DNA of 64,000 nucleotides from a virus, in the IMG/VR virus record IMGVR_UViG_3300023049_000543, positions 1 through 64,000 of that record; one strand, given 5' to 3'. Each line of letters begins with the position of its first letter. Position 1 is the stretch's first letter. Positions 5,455 through 47,022 of this stretch are shown piece after piece. The notes beneath the pieces are model-generated. The model did not search any database. It was not told the DNA's origin and worked only from the letters and a program-made list of their open reading frames with translations. The translations under genes and the position numbers were made by a program.

Positions 5455-5910
5455 CTACGCCTTTTCCTTAAAAGTGTCTGCGATTTTCGTTTTAAGAGCC
5501 GTCGAAGATTGAACCTCGATGACGTCTTCGATAATAACCAATTCGCAAATATCGGCACCAATTACATCCTGCCCATAAATCTGAGGGGCATTCTTGTATA
5601 TGTAATCAGCGAAGCCACAAGCCAAAATCAAATCATCGAGCGACCGCAAGATGAACACAGCGTCAACGTGCCGGAGATCCGCGATCATTTGGGCTCGATG
5701 ATATTCCGGGATTGATGGAAATTGCCCCTTGTTCTTTTTGACGAGATCGTCCGAGTCCACGCCCACAATAAGAACGTCACAGTGAGCATGGCATCGTTTC
5801 AGATAATGAGAATGATAAAAGTGAAGAAGATCGAAGCAGCCAGAAGTTACACCGACTTTCTGTCCTTGATCAAGACCGATTCTACGGATCTCTTTGGGGT
5901 CAACTATCAT
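5455..5910 (-). CDS. Cytidylyltransferase-like protein (RfaE/TagD family)
   Basis: The 151-aa protein matches the nucleotidyltransferase fold of RfaE domain II and TagD: a GCFDLLHFYHSHYL start, in which the usual HxGH is HFYH at residues 30-33, and a C-terminal QSSTALKTKI corresponding to the ISST..(K/R)I signature. It would activate a sugar phosphate or glycerol phosphate as a CDP or ADP derivative. The change of the conserved Gly to Tyr in HxGH makes catalytic activity uncertain. It is in line with the sugar genes on both sides. Confidence 0.75.
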   Translation of the reverse strand: MIVDPKEIRRIGLDQGQKVGVTSGCFDLLHFYHSHYLKRCHAHCDVLIVGVDSDDLVKKNKGQFPSIPEYHRAQMIADLRHVDAVFILRSLDDLILACGFADYIYKNAPQIYGQDVIGADICELVIIEDVIEVQSSTALKTKIADTFKEKA

Positions 5911-5992
5911 CTAATTTCTCTTTCCAATTACCTATGAAAGCCTCGAAACAAAAGGATGGCACGAATTCAAAAAAGAAGGAAACACAACATGT

Positions 5993-6319
5993 ATGGAAAT
6001 AAGAGATAGTTTAAAACGCGATCTAGTTAGAGGTCTCATAGATGGTGACGGATGGATAACAATCGCGAGAAATGGAAGACCAACAATAGGATTTTGTGAT
6101 ATGCACTACGATGTGGTGAAATGGGTACAAGATTGGATTATACATAATATCCAGAATATTAATCAAACGAAGATTTATAATACCCCAGCGAAGCGGTTTA
6201 TGTATAATGGAGGCCAACAAGTCCCAAGGATATTAAAAGAAATATATCCGGAGGAATGTAGGGCATTAGATAGAAAGAATGGCCTTGCTAAACACTTAAT
6301 AGAAATAATTATAAATTAA
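5993..6319 (+). CDS. Single-motif LAGLIDADG homing endonuclease
   Basis: A 108-aa protein with one LAGLIDADG helix (LVRGLIDGDGWITI, residues 12-25) followed by the usual beta-strand and helix pattern and a C-terminal LDRKNGLA segment. Proteins with one motif act as homodimers. It runs opposite to its neighbours and its stop overlaps that of the ligase C-terminal gene by 4 bases. It is more AT-rich than the genes around it, as expected for a recently acquired element. It has no DNA-binding accessory domain and could be a fragment. Confidence 0.75.
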   Translation: MEIRDSLKRDLVRGLIDGDGWITIARNGRPTIGFCDMHYDVVKWVQDWIIHNIQNINQTKIYNTPAKRFMYNGGQQVPRILKEIYPEECRALDRKNGLAKHLIEIIIN

Positions 6320-7290
6320 TTATCCATAATCTCGAAAACTTCTTCGAATGCTGATTCACCATCAAGGATTTGAGGATCGGCTTCTCTAATCATCTTTTCC
6401 AATTCTTGGATTCCAATAATGGTTATTCCATATTGTTCGGCTTTTTTAGCTTTAGAAGTGCGTTCAGATTTATCACGTTGGACCAAGAAATCAAGCTTCT
6501 TGCTCACACCGCTCTTAACCTCACCGCCAAGCTTCTCAACAATGTCAGCATAGAGTCGGGTACCAGTAAAACAAAAAGTTCGTGTTTGGAAAGGCTTCGA
6601 GCCTGCATCCGATTCCTCAGCCTCGACCTTGGGCTCATGGACGCCGACGCCCATTTCCCGAAGCCGGAGAAGGTCAGCCTTCATAACACTCAATTGACAC
6701 TCGATCGAAATCAGAATGTTCTGTGGCAAATGCGGGTGACGGAGCAACTGGATCAGATTGCAACCCTTAGCACAAGAAATCCAATCATCGAAAGTCTCAA
6801 GCTGACCAAGATCACTAAGAGCACCCGTACGAGCGACTTCCATCATAATCTCCGCCCGATGCTCGCCCATCCCATCAATTCCAAGCGAGCCAACCAACTT
6901 CTGAATCGGAGCGTTCTTGGATTCTTGGATATTCGCAACGATCGTCTTTGCCCGCTTGGCTCCGACCACACCATTACCAATTGACAAGACTCGGACTTGA
7001 TCCTCAGTCAAGGTGTACAAATCAGGAATCGAGCTAACGAGCCCTGACTTGATAAGGCTGGCAATCAGATTCTCACCGATCCCGAGGATGCCCATGCCAC
7101 GCTTGGACGATCCGATGAATCCCTTGATCTTCTCGAATTGGATGCCAGGGCACTCGTAGTTGACGCAGTAGATATCGACTGATTTGCCCTTGACCAGATC
7201 CTTGTATTGGACCTGCTTATCACAAACGGGGCATCTGTGAGGCTTCTGCAAAGTCGCCGGGATTTCTTCTAAATCCATAATACAATTCAT
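6316..7290 (-). CDS. ligA: NAD-dependent DNA ligase, C-terminal half (zinc finger, HhH, BRCT)
   Basis: This is the second half of a LigA-type ligase: a four-cysteine zinc finger near the start (CPVC, then CVNYEC), a helix-hairpin-helix region around residues 70-190 with GIDGMGEHRAE, and a C-terminal BRCT domain (FCFTGTRLYADIVEKLGG). The adenylation and OB domains lie on a separate gene (8168-9364), with an antisense homing endonuclease gene between. Aligned in mind with E. coli LigA the two halves join with almost no loss between the OB fold and the zinc finger. Start may be ATG 7290 or ATG 7278. Confidence 0.9.
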   Translation of the reverse strand: MNCIMDLEEIPATLQKPHRCPVCDKQVQYKDLVKGKSVDIYCVNYECPGIQFEKIKGFIGSSKRGMGILGIGENLIASLIKSGLVSSIPDLYTLTEDQVRVLSIGNGVVGAKRAKTIVANIQESKNAPIQKLVGSLGIDGMGEHRAEIMMEVARTGALSDLGQLETFDDWISCAKGCNLIQLLRHPHLPQNILISIECQLSVMKADLLRLREMGVGVHEPKVEAEESDAGSKPFQTRTFCFTGTRLYADIVEKLGGEVKSGVSKKLDFLVQRDKSERTSKAKKAEQYGITIIGIQELEKMIREADPQILDGESAFEEVFEIMDN

Positions 7291-7375
7291 TTTTTAAATC
7301 TCATTCATTAAGGGAACAATGTCTATTGCTATGTTTCATGAGAGCAAACATATGTTAATAACACTAACAACAGAC

Positions 7376-7384
7376 ATTATAACA
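7376..7384 (-). promoter_or_regulatory. Candidate extended -10 promoter for ligase C-terminal half
   Basis: On the minus strand the sequence reads TGTTATAAT, a consensus -10 with the TGn extension, about 85 bases before the ligase C-half start. No good -35 is seen. The same nine bases stand before the ligase N-half gene (9403-9411). This would let the second half be transcribed on its own. Confidence 0.4.
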
Positions 7385-8184
7385 TGCAATCCAAAAAACA
7401 ACGACTGATTGATTATTATTTTAATCAGAAACTAAGCCAGTCTCAAACTGCCAATAAAATGGGGATCAGCAGGTCAAGAGTGGGACAATTGATCAAAGAA
7501 TATGGAATGTCTAGTAGGGAATACGCAGAAGCGTCTTCGAACACGAACAATCAAAAAACAATTGAATTTAATGACCACCAGAAAGATTTAATGTTTGGAA
7601 GTATGTTGGGAGATGCTGGGTATTATAAAACAACCATGAGATCGAATAAAACAAACAAAGAATTGGAGGTAATCAGGATGACTTTCGCACATTCTATTAA
7701 ACAGTATGAATATCTATTACACAAAAAAGAAATTATGGGTGGCACAAAAATTGGCGAAAGAATTAGTGGACACGGATCAATAATAAAACATTTTTCTGTG
7801 TGTCACACGCCAAGTTTGAAACCATATGTCGACTATTTTCTAGACGAGAATAATAAAAAATCGGTCAAAAGAAACTGGGTGGAGAAATTAAATTGGAGAT
7901 CTATAGCATATTGGTTCATGGATGATGGTGATCTTATTATAAGAAACAAGGGAAAGAATCCAGTAATAGGATTCCACACCGAATCGTTTAATCAACATGA
8001 ATTACGAATTCTCAGAGATAAACTATTAGAATTCGGGCTGACCACAAGTACAAGAATTTGCAATAAAGATCCAAATCAACTGAAAATAGTATCAAAACAT
8101 TATAAAGAAGTTGCTGGTTTTCTAGAAAAAATGAAAGAATTCATAATACCAACAATGGAATATAAAATTAGGTGGATTCTTTGA
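7384..8184 (+). CDS. LAGLIDADG homing endonuclease with N-terminal HTH, inside the split ligase
   Basis: The 266-aa protein starts with a helix-turn-helix (residues about 18-40, SQTANKMGISRSRVGQL) and carries two LAGLIDADG-type helices (MFGSMLGDAGYY at 70-81, AYWFMDDGDLI near 175-185), as in intron-type two-motif enzymes. It lies antisense between the two ligase halves and its 3' end overlaps the ligase N-half gene by 17 bases. It is visibly AT-rich. No ribosome-binding site is evident. It is the probable cause of the break in ligA; its target should be an uninterrupted ligA. Confidence 0.85.
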   Translation: MQSKKQRLIDYYFNQKLSQSQTANKMGISRSRVGQLIKEYGMSSREYAEASSNTNNQKTIEFNDHQKDLMFGSMLGDAGYYKTTMRSNKTNKELEVIRMTFAHSIKQYEYLLHKKEIMGGTKIGERISGHGSIIKHFSVCHTPSLKPYVDYFLDENNKKSVKRNWVEKLNWRSIAYWFMDDGDLIIRNKGKNPVIGFHTESFNQHELRILRDKLLEFGLTTSTRICNKDPNQLKIVSKHYKEVAGFLEKMKEFIIPTMEYKIRWIL

Positions 8185-9364
8185 TCAAATTATGATGTAG
8201 TTCTTGTGCGTGTTTAGTCCCAACGAACCCACAATTCTTGCAATTATACAATTGTGGTGATTTATCGACCACTTTTAATATACGAGGGATAATGTCTCCA
8301 GCCAAGATGATCTGTACCTTGTCACCAACACCGATCTTGAGGCGTTCGACTTCGTCGTAGTTGTAAACCAGGACGTTGCTGTTGACGATCCCGCCGATTT
8401 CAACGGGCTCGACAGTAAGAGTGGGCGTGATCTTGCCGGTCGAGCCCACGGTGACGGTGACGCCGGTTACGATGGTTTCGGCCTTTTTGCTGTTGAATTT
8501 GACAGCTTGATTGGACCGGAGCCGTAGCTTGTCGCACCCTTCGTTGATCAGGTCTTGCTGAGCAAAGTCGTTGACTTTGATTACGAGTCCGTCGATATCG
8601 AAAGGATAGTCGCGACCGACCATAGTGTCGATTTGCTGCGAGATACCATCTTCTGCCACAACTTGGTAATCGGGACATGTGAACCCTAAACCAGTCATGA
8701 TATCATACATACCCGAAACGCCAGGAAATTCCATGCATTGGACAAAACAATCAAAAGCATAGAAGTGGATCAGGCCCGCTCCGTAGGAGTCTTTGCGGAC
8801 GATGAGCCCGTTGCCGGTGTTGCGGGGGTTGCGGACACCTTCGAGTTCGGCTGATTTGATGTATTCGAGGAAGTCTTCACGGTGCATGACGGCTTCGCCT
8901 CGCACCGTAATGTTGATTTCCCTGCTAAGAGTAGTTGGGACGTTCTTGAAGAATCGGGCCTTGGCGGTGATGTCTTGGCCGACTGCTCCGTTGCCGCGTG
9001 TGAGGACTCTGACCAACTTTCCGCTTTCGTAGGTGAGAGCGAGGCTGGAGCCGTCGATTTTGGGCGTGATGTGGTAGAGGGAGTCGGTCAGAACGTGGCC
9101 ACGGTTTCGTTTGACGTAGCTTTCGAGTTCTTTGGGTTTGTTGGCGTCGATGTTGTCCAACGATCCCATTGGGAATTCGTGTTCGACTTTGTCGAGAGTG
9201 GGCTCTGAGCCGACGCCGGAGAGGCGTGGGTCTTTGTGGTCGAGCCGTTGGAGCATATTCAACACGGTGTCGAACACGTCGTCGGTGACGATTGAGACGC
9301 CTTTGTTGTAATAGGAGTCTGCGGCTTCGTCGATCTTTTGGCGTAGCTGTTCTAGCTGATTCAT
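8168..9364 (-). CDS. ligA: NAD-dependent DNA ligase, N-terminal half (adenylation and OB domains)
   Basis: The 398-aa product contains the Ia and adenylation domains with the active-site KIDGSSLAL (Lys near residue 102), the FPMGSLDN motif and the GLVIKVND motif, and the OB domain ending in AGDIIPRILKVVDKS. The last 25 residues (from NCKNCGFVG to the stop) do not resemble LigA and look like read-through into the inserted DNA. The zinc finger, HhH and BRCT domains are on 6316-7290. The ATG has AAGGAAA 6 bases upstream. Presumably the halves associate to seal Okazaki fragments. Confidence 0.9.
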   Translation of the reverse strand: MNQLEQLRQKIDEAADSYYNKGVSIVTDDVFDTVLNMLQRLDHKDPRLSGVGSEPTLDKVEHEFPMGSLDNIDANKPKELESYVKRNRGHVLTDSLYHITPKIDGSSLALTYESGKLVRVLTRGNGAVGQDITAKARFFKNVPTTLSREINITVRGEAVMHREDFLEYIKSAELEGVRNPRNTGNGLIVRKDSYGAGLIHFYAFDCFVQCMEFPGVSGMYDIMTGLGFTCPDYQVVAEDGISQQIDTMVGRDYPFDIDGLVIKVNDFAQQDLINEGCDKLRLRSNQAVKFNSKKAETIVTGVTVTVGSTGKITPTLTVEPVEIGGIVNSNVLVYNYDEVERLKIGVGDKVQIILAGDIIPRILKVVDKSPQLYNCKNCGFVGTKHAQELHHNLIKEST

Positions 9365-9402
9365 CGTATTTTCCTTGGTAAAAGCGGTTGGCCGACACCG
9401 GG

Positions 9403-9411
9403 ATTATAACA
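9403..9411 (-). promoter_or_regulatory. Candidate extended -10 promoter for ligase N-terminal half
   Basis: On the minus strand TGTTATAAT stands 39 bases before the ligase ATG, giving a leader of about 30 bases. The -35 region is poor, as often with extended -10 promoters. The rest of the gap 9365-9549 holds short imperfect inverted repeats (for example CACTCT and AGAGTG near 9420-9445) and the divergent start of the gene at 9550. Confidence 0.45.
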
Positions 9412-9549
9412 CCCGGAACTCACTCTAGTGTTTCAAGAGTGTGTTTTGAGTTAAACTATGCCGGTCAGGGTGCCCCTACGTACGACCCTGAACTTCCAAC
9501 CATGCCCTTACAATACGACGTGAATTGCTAAATAACTCGGAGAACAACA

Positions 9550-9747
9550 ATGACCAGAGCTACTAGTGATCTTTTATCGAATAGTAATCCCTTACAAAAA
9601 GTCGATAAAATCGAATGTCTGACGCTCGAAAACGATGAAACGCAAGAGCATTCGTTCGATTTACTTACCGGTGAGTTGGAATCAGAAAACCCAGAGAAAG
9701 CCGACCCGGTCTTAAACGCGATCATATCAATGCTAAAGACAAGATGA
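9550..9747 (+). CDS. Small acidic hypothetical protein, 65 aa
   Basis: Unrecognised, Glu/Leu-rich protein. A GGAG motif 8 bases before the ATG supports it as a real gene. It is divergent from the ligase N-half and its last bases overlap the end of the frame-restored cytidylyltransferase on the other strand. Confidence 0.55.
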   Translation: MTRATSDLLSNSNPLQKVDKIECLTLENDETQEHSFDLLTGELESENPEKADPVLNAIISMLKTR

Positions 9748-10162
9748 TCTGATCCTACGTTTCAACTCCGTAGAACTTATCCCGTTGGTGTAAGCGGTGT
9801 ACACCAACCGGATTCCATGTTCATCCAACCACTCTTGGCTGCATTTAAGCTGCCCCCAGATAATCCTTTTCTGCCCAATCATCACCGATGGCAATAATAT
9901 CTGGATTGACCCGAGCGATCGCTATCTTGCTATCGTAACCGCCAATATTGGGCACGACCAAATCGACATATCGGCATCCCAGCAACGATGACTTTCGTTC
10001 ACTGTAGTCCATGATTGGGTCGAACTTCTTGTAAGCTCGAATAAAATCATCAGTATTGAGCGATACAACCACTCGATCAGCAATCTTCTTGCATTCTTTC
10101 AAGAAGTTAACATGACCGTAATGAAAAAGATCGAACGTACCACCAGTGTATAAGATTTTCAT
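9733..10162 (-). CDS. Glycerol-3-phosphate cytidylyltransferase-like (TagD), frameshifted
   Basis: The uninterrupted frame (9845-10162, 105 aa) has the TagD hallmarks GGTFDLFHYGH (HxGH at residues 14-17), the Arg-containing SERKSSLLGCRYVD segment and GDDW near the end, then stops early. In the next frame the missing end follows at once: LVYTAYTNGISSTELKRRI, which fits the TagD C-terminal ISSTxxK(R)I motif, and stops at 9733-9735. The frames are joined by removing one base from the C5 run at 9853-9857. Restored length is about 142 aa, near TagD's 129. It is either a sequencing error or a true frameshift. Confidence 0.85.
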
Positions 10163-28235: not shown

Positions 28236-28592
28236 TTATGGTCCTGAAGTGCCGCTCGTACCTGATGTAGGATCAACGCAATGCGTAGCGATCCTATTTT
28301 GAATTGCAGCTAGTTGATTTTGATGATACTGTTCTGCCAACGCAAGAGCATCACAGATCTGAATAAATTCGCATTCTTCGAAAGTGATAATTGCCCCATT
28401 TGTCAGACTCCGACGCTCCCCATAATGGGGAGCATGCGTTGGCAAATTGGGCCTAATTAGAATGGTATAAACCCACCCATTATTTCCACGGGTAACACCC
28501 GCAATCGTATGAGCTTCTAAGAATCCGACTGAGGCGGATTCTCGGAGGTAGACGGTTGTTCCTCGTTCGTAGAGGGGAGCGTCGTAGGGCAT
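28236..28592 (-). CDS. Hypothetical protein, 118 aa
   Basis: Unrecognised. The first 70 residues have a small beta-barrel pattern (TTVYLRESASVGFLEAHTI), the middle is helical and the end is a Thr/Ser/Gly-rich tail. It overlaps the end of recA by 76 bases and precedes the helicase N-piece by one base, so it is likely coupled to both. Confidence 0.65.
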   Translation of the reverse strand: MPYDAPLYERGTTVYLRESASVGFLEAHTIAGVTRGNNGWVYTILIRPNLPTHAPHYGERRSLTNGAIITFEECEFIQICDALALAEQYHQNQLAAIQNRIATHCVDPTSGTSGTSGP

Positions 28593-30733
28593 GAGTCTGT
28601 TCCAGTGATTACATGATTGTAAATTCTCTGAAATAGATTTGGGTCTGTCGCCAATATAGCAGCAGAAGCCGCCATACCATTGCCAAGAGATTCCCCATCA
28701 TATTTGATATGACTCCCAGAGACAGTAACAATTTTCTTATCTTTCGCTACCGTCAACAAGCTGGAATATGGGTCGACACCATAAATTGGGTATTCAGGCA
28801 GACCAAACGTGATATTGAATTCAGCAACAGTAAAAGGCGGTGCGATCTTATTCTTCTTGAATGTCACCTTGGTGGTATTACCAACAATGGTATCACCAAC
28901 CTTGAAAGAGCCTGTCCGACGAATGTCCATTCGAATAGACGAATAGAATTTCAATGCCCTCCCACCGGGGGTTGTCTCAGGAGAGTTATGCACAACAACA
29001 CCAACTTGATTACCACCAGCCATGTAATTATGATTCCCTTCTACAGAAATATCATACTTTCCCTTCTGCTTCATTTGTCGTTTGCTAGCTGGTCGAATAT
29101 CAACAATCTCAACACCGCAAGATCTGAAAGCCCTTTTTCGACTAAGATTTAATGTTTTGTAAAACCCGCGACGACAAACAGGTAATTTTCTGTCCATACA
29201 TTCTGGGACAAAGCAAGCGATCTTAGAAGCAATATTTTCGCTGATGTCCACGTCAAATGTGACTCTGCCACCACGAGACATGTAGTGGAATAAGCCTAAT
29301 TCATCAAGTGCTCGACTAATTTGATCAAGCTTCTCACCATCACCAGCGAATCGTTTGATAGATAATTGATAACGTTTACGTTCGTAAACAGCATCATCCA
29401 TCATCCAAATAGCAAAACCAAGCCATGAAAAATTGTCAAGCAAAATCATTGGGTCGCGATTTGGATAATCACGCTTAACTTCAGCAAATTCAGGATACTC
29501 TATTGAAGAATAAAAGACGCCAGAATTACATTTATAATCAGCCATCTTAAGACCAGCAGCAGAAAGAATTTCAGCCTTCCAATTCATATAATGAGTATCA
29601 ATATTATCTCGAATCTTCAGAGCAGCTCCTAATCTCTTCTTATTTTTGGAGATATGAGAGTCACCGGACAACACTCCAGTAAGGAATTGACCAAGAGTGC
29701 CATTTGGGTGACCGTCTTCATCAAACACAAAACAATCTTGTTTTGTGGTAAGATGATCACCCACACTCAAAGAATCCATTTGAACGAATTCATTATCACA
29801 CAATACTTCGTGACTTGGAGTCACAGTGATTTGCATGGTACCGTTTTTCGTACCAGTACCACGCAATGAAACGTGAAGATAGTCGTCAGATATTTCTACA
29901 TCACCATTGTGGTGCCAGTCGACGATTTTCTTTGGTTCGAATTCCTTGGTCTCGATGTTGTAAGACCATACCTCACCTTCAACCTTTTCATCATAAACTT
30001 GACGAATCGGCAATACTCTGCCATCTACAAATGGGATTAAAGTGTCGGCATGAAGGCAGCCGAACATGACGCCGATCTTCTCTCGGATCTGATTAACACA
30101 CAATAGAGTGCATTTACTGGCTGAAACAGGGCCATTGATTTTAGCAAAGGCACGACTGTTCATTCGAGCATTAGCACCAATTTGGTTGTTACCCTCAAGA
30201 GTGCCTTCGATTTCGTCTTTCGTGATCATGGCAGCGATAGAGTCGATGATCACCAATTCTACCTTGCCGGATTTGACAAGCAATTCGACAATATCGTACG
30301 CTTGCTCACCATTACTCGGCTGAGAGAAGATCAATTCTTCGACGTTCAAACCGATCGCCGAAGCCCAAGTGGGATCAAAAGCGTGCTCGACGTCGACAAA
30401 AGCCACACGTCCTGGTCGTTGCCCAGTCACTTTGCCAGAGTCGTCTTTGACGTCAAAAAGAGTGTTCTGAAATGCTGCACCGATTTTGAGGCACGTGGTA
30501 GTCTTTCCGCTCGACTCAGGCCCATAGATCTCGATGATCCTGCCTCTCGGGATTCCGCCGCATCCGATCGCCTCGTCGATACCGACGACACCGGTTGGAA
30601 CGGAATCTACTGGGACAATAGCGTTGTCTCCAGCGAATCGTACGGCTTCGACACCATACTTAGATATGAAGTGTGCTCTCAGCTCAGTCAGATCTTCAAT
30701 TGCTGTGCTCTTCGTTTTAACTTTCACCATCAT
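28517..30733 (-). CDS. recA: RecA/UvsX-type recombinase with internal intein
   Basis: The extein is a bacterial-type RecA of about 380 aa: PTGVVGIDEAIGCGGIPRGR, Walker A GPESSGKT, Walker B LVIIDSIAA, loop L1 area EGNNQIGANARMNSRA and loop L2 FG-SPETTPGGRALKFYSS. A 358-aa intein is inserted in L2 between Gly and Ser. The C-terminal tail is Ser/Pro/Glu-rich. The first good start is ATG 30733 with AAGGTGAG upstream; a GTG at 30739 also exists. It acts in recombination-dependent replication with gp32- and gp46/47-like proteins of this window. Confidence 0.95.
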   Translation of the reverse strand: MMVKVKTKSTAIEDLTELRAHFISKYGVEAVRFAGDNAIVPVDSVPTGVVGIDEAIGCGGIPRGRIIEIYGPESSGKTTTCLKIGAAFQNTLFDVKDDSGKVTGQRPGRVAFVDVEHAFDPTWASAIGLNVEELIFSQPSNGEQAYDIVELLVKSGKVELVIIDSIAAMITKDEIEGTLEGNNQIGANARMNSRAFAKINGPVSASKCTLLCVNQIREKIGVMFGCLHADTLIPFVDGRVLPIRQVYDEKVEGEVWSYNIETKEFEPKKIVDWHHNGDVEISDDYLHVSLRGTGTKNGTMQITVTPSHEVLCDNEFVQMDSLSVGDHLTTKQDCFVFDEDGHPNGTLGQFLTGVLSGDSHISKNKKRLGAALKIRDNIDTHYMNWKAEILSAAGLKMADYKCNSGVFYSSIEYPEFAEVKRDYPNRDPMILLDNFSWLGFAIWMMDDAVYERKRYQLSIKRFAGDGEKLDQISRALDELGLFHYMSRGGRVTFDVDISENIASKIACFVPECMDRKLPVCRRGFYKTLNLSRKRAFRSCGVEIVDIRPASKRQMKQKGKYDISVEGNHNYMAGGNQVGVVVHNSPETTPGGRALKFYSSIRMDIRRTGSFKVGDTIVGNTTKVTFKKNKIAPPFTVAEFNITFGLPEYPIYGVDPYSSLLTVAKDKKIVTVSGSHIKYDGESLGNGMAASAAILATDPNLFQRIYNHVITGTDSCPTTLPSTNEEQPSTSENPPQSDS
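28985..30058 (-). mobile_element. Contiguous LAGLIDADG intein in RecA (358 aa)
   Basis: Starts with Cys1 (CLHADTLIPF, block A), block B around TVTPSHEVL, two LAGLIDADG helices (LTGVLSGDSHI, WLGFAIWMMDDAVY), block F YDISVEGNHNYMAGG and block G VGVVVHN followed by Ser. All residues for splicing are present. The insertion site is the DNA-binding loop L2, so the recombinase should be inactive until splicing. Confidence 0.93.
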
Positions 30734-30968
30734 TCTCACCTTGGTTATCAGAATTAATAGCCGGTTTCACTTCCGTAGTGAACTGGCCTACTACCTTTAC
30801 GGCAGATGGTTTAACACGTAGAATACGGGCACCTCGTGACAACACAAGGAATTCGTCGTGGCTAGATACAACAGACCATCGGCCACTTGAATCAAACCCA
30901 CCTTTCTGCCCAAGAACACCAGTGGTATCAATAATAATTACAATGTCGAAAGCACGGATATTCTTCAT
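30717..30968 (-). CDS. Hypothetical protein, 83 aa
   Basis: A beta-rich protein (IVIIIDTTGVLGQKGGFD, FLVLSRGARILRV) with an acidic tail. It overlaps the start of recA by 17 bases and is divergent from the gene at 31013, so the 44-base gap 30969-31012 may hold promoters for both. Function not recognised. Confidence 0.65.
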   Translation of the reverse strand: MKNIRAFDIVIIIDTTGVLGQKGGFDSSGRWSVVSSHDEFLVLSRGARILRVKPSAVKVVGQFTTEVKPAINSDNQGENDGES

Positions 30969-34941: not shown

Positions 34942-35396
34942 TATGATTCTGTCTCCCAAGAGCTTGCACCCGGAGGCACAGGCTTCGGTTCGAACTCGGG
35001 CTTGAATTGTGGGTGTATCAAAAACGAGAGATAATTTGGGTCGGTCGCCACCGCTTTCGTTTCCAAATCGACCTCAACAGCGGTGACAAACACCAAAAAA
35101 GCCGGACCATTCACAATTGGTTCGCCAGATATCTCACAATCTGCTCGGCCTCTGCGTTTTTTCTGCTGAAGTATAACATTCGTACCAATGACTTTCTGGG
35201 CGAATTTGCCATGACAATTGCCACACAAATCAAGAGATCCTATAGCAGCTTTGCGATTTGCTTTAAGAACGGAAGGCCCCATACCATTGATGATATTGAC
35301 ACTACAGAGATCGTAACTGTAGTATCTGAACTTCGATTTCAATTTCATGTGGCAAAGATCACACGATATTCCATCTTTAGTCGTAAGCTGGGCCAT
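34941..35396 (-). CDS. Zinc-binding hypothetical protein, 151 aa
   Basis: Two cysteine pairs (CDLCHMKL and CGNCHGKF) suggest a treble-clef or ribbon fold. The start overlaps the stop of the DnaE C-piece (TAATG), so it is coupled to the polymerase gene. No further identification. Confidence 0.7.
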   Translation of the reverse strand: MAQLTTKDGISCDLCHMKLKSKFRYYSYDLCSVNIINGMGPSVLKANRKAAIGSLDLCGNCHGKFAQKVIGTNVILQQKKRRGRADCEISGEPIVNGPAFLVFVTAVEVDLETKAVATDPNYLSFLIHPQFKPEFEPKPVPPGASSWETES

Positions 35397-36595
35397 TAAT
35401 CTTTCCGATTCAACGGGATTATCACATTATTACGCAACATCGTAAAGGACTTGCGTTTCGGCTGATAAGTCACCGGAATCATACAAGCAACACCCTTCCT
35501 CAGGACCGATGGGTTAATCTTCTCTAGATTGTCGCTCCAGATGAAAACTGTCGTGGTTTCACGACCATCAGTAACATTCAATCGACAATAAGGATCACCC
35601 TTCTGAGTGCTACCTCTATGTACTTCATTGATAATGCATTCGAGGAAAGCAGCCTGCTGAGTCATGAAATCCTCAATACAACCCTGGATATCCCGATTAG
35701 CCCGAGTATCATACATCAAAAGCGGATTGGATAGATGATAACCCAAATACTCTTCTTCATAATCAATGATTTCCGAGATCTTGTAATCGTCGAACAATTC
35801 ATTGAAAGTCTTCAAATCGTGCTTATCTTCTGGCATCCATTCAGTCACCCGCTTCGGATAATTAGCTTCCTTCTTGCGAGGGAATAAATCACGATAGGCG
35901 TCAACCTGACGATCACGTTCATTCTCGATCTCGGAAGGCGACCAACCAACATGCTCAATCAGAGTCGGATACAACTCACGACGTTCAGCAGTCTTCATCT
36001 TCTTATACTTATAAACATAATAATGCCACAAAGCCCGGCGATTCTCATGATCCGGAACCTTCTCGAAAGCCCCAAGACGAATCAAACGCTCAACAAGAGT
36101 CTTACCAGCATTCGTACGTTCGATAAAGTCATCAAGCGATTCAAAAGGCCCCTCGACCTCAGTGATGGCACGATCTGATTCACCGATGCCCTTAATCGAA
36201 AGCATACCGACCGAAACAACATTGCCAATCACGCTAAAATTAGGGCTCAGATTGTTCACATCAACAGGGATGATCTCAAACTTCTCGTAGCCCTCTTTCG
36301 GAGGTCGTCCGAGCTTGGTGATCTCAGTAGGGTGCCAACCTTCTGCACGGGCCACGGAGATATAACGGGGAGCCTTCTTTGGGTCACACGTACTCAGAAC
36401 CGACGCGATCCACTCTGGGAAGAAGTGAGCCTTGAACCATGTGCAGCGATACGCGATAATAGCAGCGTACGCAACGCCGTGACTATTTTTGTGAATAACG
36501 GAACTATTGCCGGTCAAATAGTTGTGGTGTTTTGATTGCATCTCTGGCGAATAAGTTCTTTTAACACCCAAAGAAGTCAACGATTTAATTTTCAT
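35396..36595 (-). CDS. dnaE: DNA polymerase III alpha (DnaE), C-terminal piece with split intein C-half
   Basis: Residues 1-37 are a split-intein C-half; the extein starts SHGVAYAAIIAYRCTWFKAHF, the standard DnaE sequence after FNK. Then come the helix-hairpin region (LSIKGIGESDRAI, with DDFIERTNAGKTLVERLIRLGAFE) and a C-terminal OB-type domain (CRLNVTDGRETTTVFIW). Joined to 38072-40078 by trans-splicing it completes the catalytic chain. The ATG shares bases with the stop of the endonuclease gene (ATGA). Confidence 0.92.
   Translation of the reverse strand: MKIKSLTSLGVKRTYSPEMQSKHHNYLTGNSSVIHKNSHGVAYAAIIAYRCTWFKAHFFPEWIASVLSTCDPKKAPRYISVARAEGWHPTEITKLGRPPKEGYEKFEIIPVDVNNLSPNFSVIGNVVSVGMLSIKGIGESDRAITEVEGPFESLDDFIERTNAGKTLVERLIRLGAFEKVPDHENRRALWHYYVYKYKKMKTAERRELYPTLIEHVGWSPSEIENERDRQVDAYRDLFPRKKEANYPKRVTEWMPEDKHDLKTFNELFDDYKISEIIDYEEEYLGYHLSNPLLMYDTRANRDIQGCIEDFMTQQAAFLECIINEVHRGSTQKGDPYCRLNVTDGRETTTVFIWSDNLEKINPSVLRKGVACMIPVTYQPKRKSFTMLRNNVIIPLNRKD
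36485..36595 (-). mobile_element. Split intein C-half in DnaE, FNK/SH site (37 aa)
   Basis: Block F-like KRTYSPEMQSKHHNYLTG and block G SSVIHKN end in Asn with Ser as first extein residue. A length of 37 aa is canonical for a C-half. Its penultimate residue is Lys instead of His, a departure also seen in some active split inteins. Confidence 0.85.
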
Positions 36596-38121
36596 ATTTT
36601 CAACCCATATTTCAAATTACCAGAATCCCACAATCTACGATAGCCGTTTGCGAACATATTTTCTGACTCAGTGAGATCAGGATCAAAATGATCTAGTTTC
36701 TCAGAAAGTTTATGCTTTTGAAATGACCTTCTGTTATACAATTTATTAGATCTCCAATATCTATAACCAGGATTCGTGATACCATTAAATGTCATCCCAA
36801 ATTTAGAATAACACGTATCTTGAGTAGTAAAAGATCGATCGACAAATGTTTCGATACAAGTCGGTTTGTCGAATTTAATAAAGCTTTTCATGAGTTTGGA
36901 AAAACCGCCAATAACGGTATGTCCAATAATATTTGCAAATCTGGAGATGGAATAATTTACATCATTTCTGGTTAGAGATAAAACAGAAACAATTTTACCA
37001 TCATTCTCTAGAGCATACGCCACATGCGGCATAACTCCACAATGATAATGATTATCATCAAAAAATCTTTTAGCCTGCAAATTGTCCATCTTGATAATAG
37101 AGCATTTTCTTGCGTAGATCCTAGATGATAAACCCAAAGAATTTTTTATCATCGAATCTGCTACGATTCTTCGTTTAGAATAATCAAGATCAACAAACTG
37201 CAACAACTTAAAACCTCTTCTATAAGCCATGGCAGATTTCATAGAATGATAGTTTCTGTGATATGTCGATTCTTTAATATTGAATGAATGAAAATAAGCA
37301 CCATGATATTCTATACCAACATTAGCATCAGGTAGCCAGATATCCAATTCCAAACCATTTAAAATAGATCGGTTAGATCTTTCTATTTTACCATCATAAA
37401 CAGAAGCGATCCAATCAGCCAGTTCATTCTCTGGAATAGAAGTCAATTTCTCAGTGTTGCATTTAGGACAGCCATTTTTCTGTCTAACATGCCCAGTTGG
37501 GCTAGTTTCAAAATCACCGTGTTTAGGACATACGACTATCACTTTTGTTCGCTGATTTATATATATCGTTTTTGAATAATCATATTTATTACCATGGGTC
37601 GCAACACACCTTCCGATGAATTCTTCCTGGTTTAAAGTTCGTGGGTCATCTGATGGACTATCATAATAATCGGACCTAGCTTTAGTCACTCTGTCGACAT
37701 AATCTTGATCTGTGCGAAATTTTTCCTTGATCGCCTTTGACATTTTCTCCTTGAAGTCTTCAGAAACAGAAAGCCTTTCATGATTGATCACCATTTTCTC
37801 ACGATAAGAAGGATCTTTCCATCTTTCTTTGGCTGTTTCAGATCTTTTTGAAAAACTGGAAGACTTCGACGCAACAATAGACTGTCTCTCTTTAAAAGAG
37901 TCCAAAGAACGAAAACATTTCGGACAATGATAACAATTAACGTGTTTAGATTGATTATTAACCTTCCTAACATGATCATAAAAATTCGTATCTGAATTCT
38001 CATTGCAAGAATAACACGACACAATAACTCTATGCTTCAGCTTTGGTTTAACATGACCTGGATCGACCAATCTAAGGCGTGGTGATCTCCAATCCTTTGG
38101 CAACAATTTCTCTAACTTCAT
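36592..38121 (-). CDS. Vsr-like homing endonuclease with DUF723 repeat, in the DnaE fracture
   Basis: The protein (about 509 aa) has N-terminal zinc pairs (CYSCNE, CPKC), a basic helical stretch, one DUF723-type module (HGNKYDYSKTIYINQ, VVCPKHGDFE, GCPKC), a Vsr-type nuclease (LELDIWLPDANVGIEYHGAY then FHSF) and a C-terminal alpha/beta domain (SRFANIIGHTVIGGFSKLMK) shared with 44964-46400. It lies on the same strand between the two DnaE pieces. Possible ATG starts are 38133 and 38121. It is AT-rich. Confidence 0.88.
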   Translation of the reverse strand: MKLEKLLPKDWRSPRLRLVDPGHVKPKLKHRVIVSCYSCNENSDTNFYDHVRKVNNQSKHVNCYHCPKCFRSLDSFKERQSIVASKSSSFSKRSETAKERWKDPSYREKMVINHERLSVSEDFKEKMSKAIKEKFRTDQDYVDRVTKARSDYYDSPSDDPRTLNQEEFIGRCVATHGNKYDYSKTIYINQRTKVIVVCPKHGDFETSPTGHVRQKNGCPKCNTEKLTSIPENELADWIASVYDGKIERSNRSILNGLELDIWLPDANVGIEYHGAYFHSFNIKESTYHRNYHSMKSAMAYRRGFKLLQFVDLDYSKRRIVADSMIKNSLGLSSRIYARKCSIIKMDNLQAKRFFDDNHYHCGVMPHVAYALENDGKIVSVLSLTRNDVNYSISRFANIIGHTVIGGFSKLMKSFIKFDKPTCIETFVDRSFTTQDTCYSKFGMTFNGITNPGYRYWRSNKLYNRRSFQKHKLSEKLDHFDPDLTESENMFANGYRRLWDSGNLKYGLKI

Positions 38122-40078
38122 GATACAGGCCATCCTCACATAAAAATTTATGGTCTAAAGTCACGTCTTCGCAAGAACCGTCTTCGAACTCTACTCTAAA
38201 GATTTCTTGTTCACCAGAATAACTAATATCCACACAATGATCTATGAACAAATCTTGTCCATCATATGACCAAAGACTTGGTAATTGATTATGTTCAAGA
38301 AAATCACTTGTCACGGGGGGAGAGTCACACCATTCTTGAACAGTCATCTCTAATCCAGTAACAACACATTTCAATTTTGTGTCGTATGACAAACATTTAT
38401 TAAAAGCGTAGCGGCCGAAAGCCTCAAGCTTGCCCCAATATTCCTCAGCAAAATCGGATCCAAGTGTCTTCGAAGCACCCCTCATCCACTTTTCTTTGAT
38501 AGCTGGGAGCTTGTGGACCTTCTTCTTCGCAATGTCCTTCCGACTCATCTGAGCCTCGGTGGCCGAAAAACCACCCAGACGTTGCCAAAGAGCCGTCAAC
38601 TGTTCCTGATAAGTACAAACACCATAAGTCTTCTCAAGGATCTCGAACATAATCGGGTTGCGAGCCTTAAGCTCGCCCTTCCACGATTGAGTTGGATCAT
38701 CACGATTAGCCAAAACAGTAGGAATCGACTGCATCGGGCCAGGGTGCCCGAGAGCATTCAACAATGTCAACTGGTGCGGATCACTGACACCCTCACCCTC
38801 AGATGCGTCAGCCAAAATCGACTTGGCCAATGACGTATCGAACTGGAAAATCGTGTCCGTCCGTTGGGTGTTGATGAGCTTATAAGTCGCTTTATCATCA
38901 TAGCGAATCTCGTGCTCGTTCCCATCCAAGTCATAAAACTTGCCACAATAACCAGCCTCGGGATCGACATCATCAAGACCCGAAAGTTCATAGCAACCGC
39001 CATATCCCTCGATCTCTTGTGGGATACCAAAAGTAATCCCGCGATTCGCCTTGATCATATAACAACAGTTATAAATGTACTCCAAGGTCTTAAGACCAAG
39101 AATGTCCCATTTAATATATCCGCATTTGGATAACTGTTGATCCCCGCCCTCAGACCACATCGAAACCCAAGGGCCATCAACCTTATTCTTACCAAGCGGG
39201 ATGTTGCCAAGAAGCTTGGTGCTGGCGATGATTAGAGCACCCGCATTCATGCCCATGTTGCGAATTCGACCGACCATTTTAGCCGCATAGCCAATAGCAG
39301 CCGGGAAACGACGAGCAAAATCAGCTAAAGGCTCGCTCTCTTTCAACAGACGTTCGAGAGTCGGAGCGTCAGTTAGTTCACTACCACATTTCGGACATTG
39401 ATAACGAGCGTGGCGATTGCCACACTCACGCATTTTGCCACTCTCATCTGTGACGTTGCCCTTACAAGTAGCCAGACCACCGGGTTTGAGGCTATCAAGA
39501 TCATCGGGGAGATTAGAAGTCAGCTTTTCAGCTTCGTTCCTATGCATCAATCCTAAAGCGGTTGCTGCGTCTTGGATCGCCATCTTGAATTTGTATGTCT
39601 GCCATGTGCCGACACTACACACTTGAAGATCGCCTAATCCGTTCCCATCACCATAACGCCTGATGGCGTAGTCTTTGATCGGATCGCGGGCCGCTGGGAG
39701 ACAGTCAATGTCAATATCTGGGACGTCGTTGTCTTTTTGGAAGTCATGGGGTGGGCTACCATGCTTCTCGACGTATGCGGCGACATCGTCGTAGCTTGTG
39801 CTGATTAGGCATTCCGAGCCTCGTTGAGACATGGGATCGACGGGTTCGGTCAGCATCCCGAGAACCCATGGTATCAGCAGATTGTTGGGGTTCGAGTCGA
39901 ATTTGGCTTCGGTGTTGAGATACTCGATCCAGAGGCCATTTAAACCTTGCTTGTTCAGTTCGTACAACTCGAACTCAACACGATCCTTGTATTGTTCTGG
40001 TAAGTGGTCGGCTGCTTGCTTTACAGACTCTTCGAACTCTTCCCAGGTTTCAATCTTGTTTAGCAGCGTTGTACTCAT
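38072..40078 (-). CDS. dnaE: DNA polymerase III alpha (DnaE), palm/fingers piece with split intein N-half
   Basis: Contains the catalytic DVPDIDIDC and the third acidic site in IKWDILGLKTLEYI, so the metal-binding aspartates of DnaE are all here. A zinc insert (CGNRHARYQCPKCG), then FQFDTSLAKSILADASEGEG, YQEQL, and EAFGRYAFNK, where the intein N-half begins. The first 100 residues precede the catalytic motif and contain NLLIPWVLGMLTEPVDP, which looks like the LVAYLLG..DP segment also present on 41006-41341. Start ATG 40078 overlaps the upstream gene by 29 bases. Confidence 0.92.
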   Translation of the reverse strand: MSTTLLNKIETWEEFEESVKQAADHLPEQYKDRVEFELYELNKQGLNGLWIEYLNTEAKFDSNPNNLLIPWVLGMLTEPVDPMSQRGSECLISTSYDDVAAYVEKHGSPPHDFQKDNDVPDIDIDCLPAARDPIKDYAIRRYGDGNGLGDLQVCSVGTWQTYKFKMAIQDAATALGLMHRNEAEKLTSNLPDDLDSLKPGGLATCKGNVTDESGKMRECGNRHARYQCPKCGSELTDAPTLERLLKESEPLADFARRFPAAIGYAAKMVGRIRNMGMNAGALIIASTKLLGNIPLGKNKVDGPWVSMWSEGGDQQLSKCGYIKWDILGLKTLEYIYNCCYMIKANRGITFGIPQEIEGYGGCYELSGLDDVDPEAGYCGKFYDLDGNEHEIRYDDKATYKLINTQRTDTIFQFDTSLAKSILADASEGEGVSDPHQLTLLNALGHPGPMQSIPTVLANRDDPTQSWKGELKARNPIMFEILEKTYGVCTYQEQLTALWQRLGGFSATEAQMSRKDIAKKKVHKLPAIKEKWMRGASKTLGSDFAEEYWGKLEAFGRYAFNKCLSYDTKLKCVVTGLEMTVQEWCDSPPVTSDFLEHNQLPSLWSYDGQDLFIDHCVDISYSGEQEIFRVEFEDGSCEDVTLDHKFLCEDGLYHEVREIVAKGLEITTP
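38075..38395 (-). mobile_element. Split intein N-half in DnaE, FNK/SH site (107 aa)
   Basis: Block A CLSYDTKLKCVVTG, and block B RVEFEDGSCEDVTLDHKFL with the conserved D-H. Length and order match the cyanobacterial DnaE split intein, but the insertion point is three residues further on (after FNK and not before CFNK). Confidence 0.9.
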
Positions 40079-41009
40079 CCAGTTTTTCCGGGTGCTTTTG
40101 TTTGACGTGATTGGTAACACCGAAGGCTTTCTTCATCGTTTTGTCACAGTAAGGACAGGAGAAACCTTCAGTCGGTTTCTCTATCACTTCTGGTGCTTCC
40201 TCTTCGGAACCACGGGGATCAGCGTTTGGTACTTCCGTGGTGGCATCCGTCTCGGAGTCGTCTTCAAGGAATTGTGGTGGCACATCATTGTCGACCACTA
40301 AATCCTCAACGTCAACGACGGCATCGGATGATTTGATGAAGTTCCGGAGCGAGACTGGAAGTAACACCCATGGGCCTTCTGCGACGATGTGTTTTCCTTG
40401 TATTGTATACGAGCTGTAATACAAGAGCAGATTATGGTCGTTCGATTGGGAAACGATCTCTTGCAGATGCTTCTTAGAGAAAGCCTTGCGAAATCCGACG
40501 ATTTTGGATGGTGGTTCGACTAAGGCGAAAACGAATTTTTCGTAGTCGAGGTCATTGAGTGACTTGCCGATATCAGCAGCGACATTCCCGCTGTCATCTT
40601 GATTGTAGAACACAGAAGGGGGCAGATTTTTCACAATGATTTCATCCACAATAGCACGTTCGTCAGAAGCAGCCAAAAGAGACGATTCAGCTGATAACAA
40701 TTTCTCGATCACCAAGTCTGGTGCACCATATTCAACACGCTTGAATTTGTCACGCCACTCACCAAGCACCTTCTCAGTACAAGATGACTCATCCGGGCTG
40801 ACCAATATCAATTCGTGTCGGAAATTACCTATTGTGGCAGCTAAAGCCAATAATTCACCGCGACCGGCAGACGGGCAAATCTCAGCAGAACCAAACCAAC
40901 GTGCCATGTAAAGCATGGAGTAGTCTCCATCTTTCATCTCACGTTGGACTTGGAGAGAGCAATAAAGTTGTCGGTCAATTATTGAGTCGTCGTACTGAAT
41001 TCTGATCAT
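40050..41009 (-). CDS. Hypothetical protein with C-terminal C2H2-like zinc finger, 319 aa
   Basis: The ATG at 41007-41009 overlaps the TGA stop of the short DnaE piece (ATGA). The body is alpha/beta without a recognised family; the C-terminus after an acidic linker (EEEAPEVIEKPTEG) is FSCPYCDKTMKKAFGVTNHV, a C2H2-type finger. It stands exactly between the two chains of DnaE, so a polymerase-associated role is suggested by position only. Confidence 0.7.
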   Translation of the reverse strand: MIRIQYDDSIIDRQLYCSLQVQREMKDGDYSMLYMARWFGSAEICPSAGRGELLALAATIGNFRHELILVSPDESSCTEKVLGEWRDKFKRVEYGAPDLVIEKLLSAESSLLAASDERAIVDEIIVKNLPPSVFYNQDDSGNVAADIGKSLNDLDYEKFVFALVEPPSKIVGFRKAFSKKHLQEIVSQSNDHNLLLYYSSYTIQGKHIVAEGPWVLLPVSLRNFIKSSDAVVDVEDLVVDNDVPPQFLEDDSETDATTEVPNADPRGSEEEAPEVIEKPTEGFSCPYCDKTMKKAFGVTNHVKQKHPEKLDEYNAAKQD

Positions 41010-41341
41010 GTTGATGAAACCGGTTTTGGCATGGATGCATTGAGACGGTATCCACCACGGGCTTCTGCAAGGAACCGGTCGAATGACAGGTCCCATTTCA
41101 GAGGATCGATCGAGGATAAACCGAGTAAGTAACAAACAAGACTACCACCAGCCGAATTAGAGCTAAATACCCCATTCAGTTGGTAACAATTTGTATTGCT
41201 GATTTGAATATCGTAAACCTTGCCATCATAATGTGACTTGGTTATCTTTTTGATTTTTCTTCTCTTTATAGAACCTTCTGTAACCAATTTCTGCAATTCG
41301 GCGATGTTCTGGATCTGAGAAGGTAATAGATTCTTGTTCAT
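41006..41341 (-). CDS. dnaE: DNA polymerase III alpha (DnaE), short piece after split intein C-half
   Basis: After the intein C-half the extein reads SAGGSLVCYLLGLSSIDPLK and WDLSFDRFL, the DnaE segment that follows GPRG, then ends NASMPKPVSST. In an unbroken DnaE the next residues would be MPDIDID, which are absent; the catalytic aspartates are on 38072-40078. So the chain made by trans-splicing here stops inside the palm. Start uncertain: ATG 41341 is chosen, GTG 41377 and a TTG at 41287 are possible. Confidence 0.85.
   Translation of the reverse strand: MNKNLLPSQIQNIAELQKLVTEGSIKRRKIKKITKSHYDGKVYDIQISNTNCYQLNGVFSSNSAGGSLVCYLLGLSSIDPLKWDLSFDRFLAEARGGYRLNASMPKPVSST
41156..41341 (-). mobile_element. 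Split intein C-half in DnaE, GPRG/S site
   Basis: Block F GKVYDIQISNTNCYQLNG and block G VFSSN end in Asn followed by Ser. The functional part is probably the last 40 residues; the residues before overlap the endonuclease gene. The penultimate residue is Ser, not His. Confidence 0.82.
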
Positions 41342-42239
41342 AAATTTTCTTAATTTGTTTCCACATATTAGTCCCACCGAGACCGGACAAAATCCCCTCA
41401 GCCAACAAAAGGTCTACATCATATAACACGTACTCATCTGCTACGCCAGTTTCTTGAATGTATCGAATAGCAGCTTCTCGCTTCTCGGTAATATTGTTTT
41501 TATAATAACCCTTTATTTCTGCTATTACTCTTTTTCCACTTGGATAAACAAGATAAAAGTCTGGGTGATAAAAATGAGACCCATAAGCTATAGCGTTTTC
41601 GCATCTTCTTATTACATCACATTCTTCCTTGATACGCGAAATGAATATTAATTCAAATCCGCTATCGAACCTAATATTATGGCCGTTTATGAGAATAGAA
41701 CCATAAACCGACCTGCTTCGTCTTCTGTGTTTTGCTGAATATTCAACATCAGTTTGCATTAATCTATTGTGTTCTTCGAAAGATTTTAAACACTTGGACC
41801 TATAGTCGGGATTTTCCCACAACTTGATGCTTCTTTCTTTATGGTCACTCAAAACATCTTCTGAAGTGTTGATCAGCCTTTGTAAGCATATGTAGCATAA
41901 TTTGGAAAATCTGTGGTTTTTCCTCACCAAAATCTTAGACCATTCTGTTTGACAATTTTCGCCACAAGTTTCACATTCATATGAGACAAGAATTTTGGAA
42001 TTAACATCTTTTAAATACTTGATCGCAACATCAAAATCGATATCCCATTTAAAAACATCAGAATGAAAATTTTCTGGAAGAACATCAAAAAGATTTGGTG
42101 CTTTCTGCAATTTAATCAGACAATCTCGACAATAGTTCTTATTCTTATGATGTTTACGATATCGCAAATTGTGAGTTGTAGTAGAATGATGTTTCCCACA
42201 TCCAATACAATCAAATTCAACTCTTATGTATTTCATCAT
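41226..42239 (-). CDS. PD-(D/E)XK-type homing endonuclease in the DnaE fracture
   Basis: Two zinc modules at the N-terminus (CIGCGKHH with CRDC; CETCGENC with CYIC) precede a basic region and a nuclease core of the PD-(D/E)XK kind: FDSGFELIFISR (Glu), FYHPDFYLVYPSG (Pro-Asp) and VIAEIKGYYK (ExK). It is not of the Vsr type of the other fracture endonucleases. It starts inside the end of the intein N-half gene and ends over the start of the C-half gene, on the same strand. AT-rich. Confidence 0.82.
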   Translation of the reverse strand: MMKYIRVEFDCIGCGKHHSTTTHNLRYRKHHKNKNYCRDCLIKLQKAPNLFDVLPENFHSDVFKWDIDFDVAIKYLKDVNSKILVSYECETCGENCQTEWSKILVRKNHRFSKLCYICLQRLINTSEDVLSDHKERSIKLWENPDYRSKCLKSFEEHNRLMQTDVEYSAKHRRRSRSVYGSILINGHNIRFDSGFELIFISRIKEECDVIRRCENAIAYGSHFYHPDFYLVYPSGKRVIAEIKGYYKNNITEKREAAIRYIQETGVADEYVLYDVDLLLAEGILSGLGGTNMWKQIKKIYEQESITFSDPEHRRIAEIGYRRFYKEKKNQKDNQVTL

Positions 42240-44940: not shown

Positions 44941-44963
44941 CGAAAATCCAAAGAGTTGAAGTA

Positions 44964-46400
44964 ATGGCAAGAAGAAGAACACAAGAAGAATTTATTGAAC
45001 AAAGCTTAAAGAAACATGGCGAAAAATATGATTATAACAAATCTAATTATATAAATGAATATACTAAAATAATAATAATATGCCGAGAGCATGGCGAATT
45101 TGAGCAAAAACCGTCAATCCACTTAAAGGGACATGGGTGCAGAAAATGCCGATATGAAAAATTAGCAGCCAATATGGGTGGTGGATTAACCGGTTTTATT
45201 AAGAAAGCTTCTAAAATTCATGATAATAAATACGATTATTCAAAAGTTGAATATTCGACATCACAGAAGAAAGTGGTTATCATATGTCCAGAACATGGTG
45301 AATTCGAACAATTACCGTATAATCATATTAATAAGTGTGCTGGTTGTTTGAAGTGTTCGACCGCTTACCAACCCACAAATAAAGAATTTATAAACAAACT
45401 TGTTTATAAATTCGGAGAAAGGCATGATTATTCTAAAACTATATATACATCATCGAAAGACAGAATTACTGTAATATGTCCAGAGCATGGTGAATTTCAA
45501 ATTAGAGCTGAATCTTATGTAAGATCTGGATCTTGCCCTAGATGCTGCTCGTCTAACGAACAATTGGTGATCCACGATTTTGTTACCAGCTTCGAACCAA
45601 CGGCAAAATCGAATGATAGGGAAGCCATACGCCCTTTAGAATTAGATGTCTATATTCCAAGCAAAAAACTTGGAATAGAATATAATGGAAATTATTGGCA
45701 TTCATTTAACAGAAATGAAACAACAGAAGAGAGAAAGAGGCACCAAACAAAATTCGAGAAATGCGAAAAATCTGGTATAAGATTATTTCAAATAAACACC
45801 ACGGAATATGAAGACAAATTCGAAATAGTCCAATCTATGATCAGACACAGATTAGGATTATCAAAAAAGGTCGGTGCCAGAAAAACAATGGTCAAAGAAA
45901 TATCTAACAAAGAAGCGGGAATTTTTTTAGACCGCTGTCATATTAGTGGCCACAGAAATGCATCTAAAAATTATGGATTGATTCTTGACGACAAATTGAT
46001 CGCCACAACCACATTTAGTAAATATAAAATAGGTTGGGAAATAATAAGATACGCCAACGAGTTAAACATAACCGTGGTAGGCGGTTTTTCTAGATTACTA
46101 AAATCATTTATAATCGACAATCGACCGAAAACAATCATGACGTTTGCTGATCTAAGATATGGAAGTGGAAATGTTTATAAAGAATCTGGCTTCGAGTTAG
46201 TGAAACGAACGAAACCAGGATATGTCTATCTTGACTCTAATGCAAGATATATGGGGTCTAGGATAAAATTCCAAAAACATAAACTTGAAAAAATTTTAGA
46301 AGTCTTTCATACAGAACTAACGGAATCTGAAAACATGTTTCTCAACGGTTATAGAAGAATGTGGGATGCTGGGCATAATCAGTTTATTTTGAATCTCTAA
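44964..46400 (+). CDS. Free-standing Vsr-like homing endonuclease with three DUF723 modules
   Basis: Three copies of a roughly 60-residue module (each with HG-KYDYSK, ICPEHGEFEQ and GCxKC elements at about 8-60, 77-132 and 140-195) are followed by a Vsr-type nuclease (LELDVYIPSKKLGIEYNG, NYWHSF) and a C-terminal alpha/beta domain (IIRYANELNITVVGGFSRLL) like that of 36592-38121. AAAGAG precedes the ATG. It is opposite in direction to its neighbours, directly upstream of dnaE, and overlaps the next gene by 17 bases. AT-rich. Confidence 0.88.
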   Translation: MARRRTQEEFIEQSLKKHGEKYDYNKSNYINEYTKIIIICREHGEFEQKPSIHLKGHGCRKCRYEKLAANMGGGLTGFIKKASKIHDNKYDYSKVEYSTSQKKVVIICPEHGEFEQLPYNHINKCAGCLKCSTAYQPTNKEFINKLVYKFGERHDYSKTIYTSSKDRITVICPEHGEFQIRAESYVRSGSCPRCCSSNEQLVIHDFVTSFEPTAKSNDREAIRPLELDVYIPSKKLGIEYNGNYWHSFNRNETTEERKRHQTKFEKCEKSGIRLFQINTTEYEDKFEIVQSMIRHRLGLSKKVGARKTMVKEISNKEAGIFLDRCHISGHRNASKNYGLILDDKLIATTTFSKYKIGWEIIRYANELNITVVGGFSRLLKSFIIDNRPKTIMTFADLRYGSGNVYKESGFELVKRTKPGYVYLDSNARYMGSRIKFQKHKLEKILEVFHTELTESENMFLNGYRRMWDAGHNQFILNL

Positions 46401-47022
46401 AGCTTATGACTTTGTTGATATTTTGGATTAACGACGGAACGTCCGAGTCCTCAATCTCTAACACATCGAGAAGTTCATTAAAAGGATCAAATGTGACAGA
46501 CTCCATTTCCTGAATAATAAGATAAATCTTATCACTATATTCCTTATCCCCAACATACTTAGCCCTAGGTTGGTACCTATCAAGTGTCATGCGAGAAGCA
46601 CGGGCTGACCTCTCTCGAATCAATGGATTAGCCACTATTTTGGCTACAAACTCTTTTATCTTGTCGAATGGACGCAGTTCGACCCAAAACAGTTGCACAA
46701 ATCTTTCAGCTGTCTCTGGGTCAGATAAGGATTTAATCAACCTCTTAACGAAGTCTTTGAAATACCGTTTCGATTTCGAAGAATAACCAGCATTGTAGCC
46801 ATTCTCATAAGCCAAAGAACAAGCTTTGAGAGTAGAAAGAGAAGCTTCGCCCCTAGTTGCTTCCGGAAGCCAATATTCAGGAGCAATTATGTTGAGTTGT
46901 TTGAATTCGGAATCGAAGATTTTAATGTCCCAGATATCGAAAATATCAAGATAATAAACCGAGTTACCTATCTTGATAACAACCACTTTATCTTTTGAAC
47001 ACAGAAATTCAAACTTCGCCAT
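46384..47022 (-). CDS. Hypothetical protein, 212 aa
   Basis: Unrecognised alpha/beta protein with an N-terminal beta hairpin (DKVVVIKIGNSVYYLDIFDI) and a helical body. The ATG shares its T with the stop of the actin-like gene (TAATG), so the two are coupled. A role with the filament is possible by position only. Confidence 0.7.
   Translation of the reverse strand: MAKFEFLCSKDKVVVIKIGNSVYYLDIFDIWDIKIFDSEFKQLNIIAPEYWLPEATRGEASLSTLKACSLAYENGYNAGYSSKSKRYFKDFVKRLIKSLSDPETAERFVQLFWVELRPFDKIKEFVAKIVANPLIRERSARASRMTLDRYQPRAKYVGDKEYSDKIYLIIQEMESVTFDPFNELLDVLEIEDSDVPSLIQNINKVISFRDSK

Follow-up and report, generated by a model that had tools for sequence, protein, structure and literature searches.

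The stretch of DNA analysed here (the window, 64,000 nucleotides of an 83,956-base virus record) carries an NAD+-dependent DNA ligase encoded in two pieces on the minus strand. LigN (8168..9364, 398 aa, residues 1–370 forming the ligase portion) comprises the Ia region, the adenylation domain with its KxDG lysine (K102-I-D-G) and the OB fold, and LigC (6316..7290, 324 aa, ligase portion 10–324) comprises the C4 zinc finger, with all four cysteines in place (C20, C23, C42, C47), followed by HhH and BRCT domains, so that the sequence features by which a LigA is recognised, including the catalytic-motif and zinc residues, are retained across the two halves. Between them, on the plus strand, lies HEG1 (7384..8184), a free-standing, I-SceI-like LAGLIDADG endonuclease gene with an N-terminal HTH, and a second, single-motif LAGLIDADG ORF of 108 aa, HEG2 (5993..6319, plus strand), has a stop codon that overlaps that of LigC. 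A preliminary description of this DNA had proposed a ligase split between OB fold and zinc finger by an antisense LAGLIDADG gene, and its gene boundaries proved right and its domain assignments were confirmed by Pfam (DNA_ligase_aden, 1.6e-35, and DNA_ligase_OB, 1.1e-18, for LigN; BRCT, 1.5e-8, for LigC, together with a DNA_ligase_ZBD match at 0.001, under the Pfam cut-off). A phmmer search against the PDB likewise aligned LigN to E. coli LigA as far as residue 391 and LigC from residue 404 onwards, the latter also matching 1DGS and 2OWO over the zinc finger, HhH and BRCT. Single-chain AlphaFold predictions of the halves, based on shallow alignments, gave unusable models (mean pLDDT 38 and 32).

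The split arrangement recurs in two further contigs, L002 (100% identity) and L003 (99.7%), over 3.7 kb, and a third, L004, stops inside the endonuclease gene and covers one junction; the three come from three metagenome sets, and both ORFs are intact in every contig that covers them. Profile searches for wider relatives led back to these loci in viral contigs and gave none in bacterial genomes. All sources are metagenomic contigs, which might raise the suspicion of an assembly chimera, yet the same arrangement in two other metagenome sets, with one junction in the third, makes a chimera scarcely conceivable: since separate metagenomes agree, the arrangement is not an assembly error.

The inserted DNA and its endonuclease genes

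A related locus (L005/L006) encodes a single intact ligase of 683 aa, about 70% identical to both halves, and provides the intact ligA for comparison that the preliminary description had sought. Its linker between OB fold and zinc finger reads VVDK-ASPPTVITAPKT-CPSC and spans 12 residues, and the window halves, when joined (VVDK-SP from LigN, IPATLQKPHR-CPVC from LigC), also leave 12 linker residues. With linkers of equal length nothing is missing, and judged from these alignments the joint is exact and no ligase residues are lost, which bears out the earlier impression of halves meeting almost without missing residues. Measured against the intact gene, the inserted DNA extends from 7264 to 8254 (about 991 bp) and is AT-rich, with a GC content of 27–36% as opposed to 48–53% in the ligase bodies. 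The figure of about 870 bases given previously therefore holds as the distance between the two ORFs but not as the size of the insert, which also supplies 9 codons at the start of LigC and 28 at the end of LigN.

The resulting LigN tail (QLYNCKNCGFVGTKHAQELHHNLIKEST and a stop codon, 8168..8254, minus strand) overlaps the 3' end of HEG1 and is missing in the intact relative L006. It reads YNCKNCG...ELHHN, a zinc-finger-like pattern, and scores highest (pLDDT about 58) in a model that is otherwise poor. The tail may be what is left of a gene inserted earlier; sequence and Pfam searches returned no significant relatives, and its identification as the remnant of an HNH or zinc-finger gene is unsupported (best E-value 2, to a Mycobacterium phage HNH protein; Pfam E-value 0.01). 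Repeats flanking the insert are limited to short matches. Within it, a perfect 13-nt inverted repeat (TTGATCAAAGAAT) occupies 7489–7501, inside HEG1, and 8176–8188, at the HEG1 3' end.

HEG1 matches LAGLIDADG_2 (3.5e-19) in addition to its N-terminal HTH and contains both LAGLIDADG-type motifs. Its nearest relative within the genome is the endonuclease of the helicase intein (32% identity over 164 aa), a kinship indicating that this lineage harbours related endonucleases. HEG2, which had escaped the preliminary description, is about 30% identical to Staphylococcus phage endonucleases, some of them annotated as intron-encoded, and no HEG2-like ORF is among those listed downstream of ligA in L006.

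Other genes of this genome are also interrupted. LAGLIDADG_2 inteins reside in RecA (28517–30739, minus strand) and in the helicase (52312–55152, plus strand), and the DNA polymerase III alpha gene (35396–44982, minus strand) is divided into four or more pieces. A TnsA/DUF790-like endonuclease ORF (41226–42239) separates piece 1, which carries an intein N part at its end, from piece 2, which opens with an intein C part. Similarly, an ORF at 36592–38139 separates piece 3, whose end reads as an intein N part (CLSYDTKL...), from the piece at 35396–36595, which opens with a C part (...VIHKN|S). Judged by sequence, both loci resemble fractured genes with split inteins. A further break, between 41006–41377 and 38072–40120 (minus strand), shows no visible intein and is common to the relative G001 (the contig of L006; 13242–15398), where the gene occupies separate frames of 871 and 1397 aa. 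Because the relative shares it, this break looks older than those associated with inteins. Elsewhere, an ORF at 47022–48308 (minus strand) gives a strong match to Volactin (PF25216, 3.9e-38), an actin-like family known from haloarchaea and unexpected beside a bacterial-type RecA, and a 503-aa ORF at 55127–56638 (plus strand) has a Mom-family DNA modification domain at its C-terminal end (5.5e-20).

Expression signals and sequence variation

Each ligase half is preceded by the same nine bases, TGTTATAAT, a candidate extended −10 promoter located at 9403..9411 (minus strand), 39 nt upstream of the LigN ATG, and at 7376..7384 (minus strand), 86 nt upstream of that of LigC. The latter copy lies within the insert and touches the HEG1 start codon. 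That this shared motif is real, as previously proposed, is reinforced by its enrichment upstream of genes: the window contains four copies against 0.71 expected (4727, 7376, 9403 and 45031, minus strand), and all four stand 39–107 nt upstream of a same-strand ORF start. As the 150-nt zones upstream of ORFs make up 6.7% of both strands, the chance of such placement is 0.067^4, or about 2e-5 (an estimate made after the motif had been seen), so that coincidence is unlikely; TGG, TGA and TGC variants of the motif show no such placement. TGTTATAAT thus appears, on its distribution, to act as a promoter motif in this phage. Invading endonucleases in T4-type phages can introduce promoters (PMC2988022). 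At the level of translation, LigN has an AAGGA Shine-Dalgarno sequence ahead of its ATG, and no Shine-Dalgarno-like 4-mer, of the kind present at 18 of the 57 ORFs here, was recognised for LigC.

Over 13 kb the window differs from L003 at 24 positions, ten of which, all transitions, fall within LigN (8294–9335). Among the split contigs the LigN differences divide equally into five synonymous and five non-synonymous, and LigC shows a single, non-synonymous one; L004 has the same LigN differences and, in addition, an in-frame 9-bp duplication in LigN. The cluster may represent either a recombination tract or relaxed selection. Compared with L006, pN is 0.20 and 0.22 for the two halves with synonymous sites near saturation, suggesting that both are about equally constrained, although this divergence mostly predates the split so that low pN says little about the period following it. 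Ratios of dN/dS suffer from the saturation of synonymous sites against L006 and from the small number of differences among the split contigs, whose polymorphisms are too few to prove selection on the split form. In the same region, a cytidylyltransferase-like ORF (9845–10162, minus strand) measures 105 aa in the window and 142 aa in L003, owing to a frame shift by a one-base difference at 9853 that is either a real variant or a sequencing error.

Origin of the split and possible alternatives

We propose that ligA was invaded, at the linker between OB fold and zinc finger, by a free-standing LAGLIDADG homing endonuclease gene lying antisense to it, whose entry would have led to fission of ligA into two genes. 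Each half would be transcribed from its own TGTTATAAT promoter, that of LigC having arrived with the insert, and the two, translated separately, would come together on nicked DNA as a non-covalent, working NAD+ ligase, with no need for splicing, in the manner of T5-type LigA/LigB. To this reading as a whole we assign a probability of roughly 0.6. It is supported directly by the intact allele in the relative, by the exact joint, by the recurrence of the insertion in independent contigs, and by the fact that both halves are open and possess all their domains. Separate promoters, separate translation, non-covalent assembly and ligase function are what we infer beyond this. A working two-subunit enzyme is plausible by analogy, since T5-type phages have exactly the same division and a two-chain PDB structure exists; the pol III alpha gene, already carried in two ORFs in the relative too, also counts in its favour.

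The exact joint, with no residue lost, would also be expected if the insert were a self-splicing intron (of group I, for instance) carrying an antisense endonuclease gene, in which case a joined mRNA would yield one full-length LigA. A hairpin with an 8-pair outer stem (CCACAATT/AATTGTGG) at the 5' boundary of the insert and the occurrence of HEG2-like endonucleases in phage introns lean the same way. However, this hairpin is not clearly more stable than shuffled sequences (z −1.3) and lacks the U-G pair of a P1 helix, only about 190 nt of the insert fall outside the endonuclease ORF, and Rfam identified no introns in the window, in 5600–9600 (E-values up to 5) or in 7230–8300 (E-values up to 10), a search whose sensitivity to an intron with an antisense ORF inside is uncontrolled. 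We regard an intron as very unlikely. Joining of the halves at the protein level by a split intein, for which the split-intein-like fragments of pol III alpha in the same genome might speak, can practically be dismissed. LigN ends 28 residues past the joint, LigC has only 9 residues before it and an in-frame TAA two codons upstream of its ATG, and these stops, closing both frames, leave no room for intein halves. Nor did Pfam give a Hint or intein match for LigN or LigC, in agreement with the earlier statement that intein residues are absent from the ligA split.

A more serious contender, though a less likely one than the preferred reading, is a recent disruption of the ligase by the endonuclease, with halves that are poorly expressed or fail to associate, another ligase (e.g., that of the host) sufficing, and the ORFs being intact only because the event is young. 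The near-identity of the split contigs (99.7–100%) implies that the ORFs have had little time for decay, variation in the region is highest in LigN, where half of the ten differences (from a total of 24) are non-synonymous, a pattern that would fit relaxed selection, and the LigN duplication in L004 and the missing LigC Shine-Dalgarno sequence count likewise against a two-subunit enzyme. Yet the ORFs of both halves are intact wherever covered and the sole indel is in frame, the linker was cut at no cost in residues, the promoter motif precedes LigC, and the same division works in T5-type phages. Moreover, this (possibly incomplete) virus record yielded no ATP-dependent DNA ligase.

The two halves would also serve as a natural experiment on the degree of tethering that an OB fold and a zinc/HhH module require to act jointly on DNA.

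Comparison with known split genes

Fractured genes with split inteins were reportedly described by Dassa et al. in 2009; as at ligA here, an endonuclease gene interrupts a phage gene of DNA metabolism. Loci of this type seem to exist in the same genome's pol III alpha gene; ligA differs in that no intein halves flank its break and that its endonuclease is antisense and of the LAGLIDADG family.

A likeness is also offered by nrdA-a/nrdA-b of Aeromonas phage Aeh1, a ribonucleotide reductase gene split by the mobE homing endonuclease without an intron and still functional (PMC3653736). In both cases a free-standing endonuclease gene splits a gene of DNA metabolism without a self-splicing intron, and the hallmarks of such genes in pieces are found here: an endonuclease gene between the halves, an intact gene in a relative, and neither intron nor intein detected. 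The host genes differ, MobE is an HNH enzyme unlike the antisense LAGLIDADG endonuclease of the window, and function was demonstrated for Aeh1, whereas the window split is known from sequence.

The strongest support for a working enzyme comes from outside this locus and was likewise absent from the preliminary description: it is the two-gene NAD ligase LigA/LigB of T5-type phages, split at the OB/zinc joint with adenylation domain and OB fold in one protein and zinc finger, HhH and BRCT in the other. The LigA of Vibrio phage VCPH stops inside the OB fold (profile position 70 of 79), its LigB begins at the zinc finger, and the two chains of PDB 9HU3/9I5I follow suit, A reaching approximately the end point of VCPH LigA and B beginning at the zinc finger. 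For phage Stitch, the A and B ligase subunits are described as needed to seal the nicked genome (PMC4319617). Such a break at the same linker implies that the joint can tolerate it, and the precedent makes the two-subunit idea less novel than previously supposed. Unlike the window locus, VCPH has no endonuclease gene between LigA and LigB (one 80-aa ORF is found there), and T5-type proteins are distant in sequence: annotated phage records are all less than 60% identical to the window ligase, the best among the matches listed being about 33%. Given this distance and an intact nearest relative, the window split is, on sequence grounds, an event independent of the T5-type one, a case of convergence and not descent; the pair may work like T5-type subunits but would not be a member of that group. 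We give somewhat less than even odds to the tentative proposal that, in an unrelated phage lineage, a selfish LAGLIDADG gene independently re-created the T5-type two-subunit NAD ligase and also supplied the promoter of the new subunit; if so, the locus would show how ligases of two subunits come about. No explanation for the origin of the T5-type two-gene ligase was found in the literature examined. With an intact sister lineage, an exact joint and the intruder still in place, the window locus makes an origin by endonuclease insertion directly testable.
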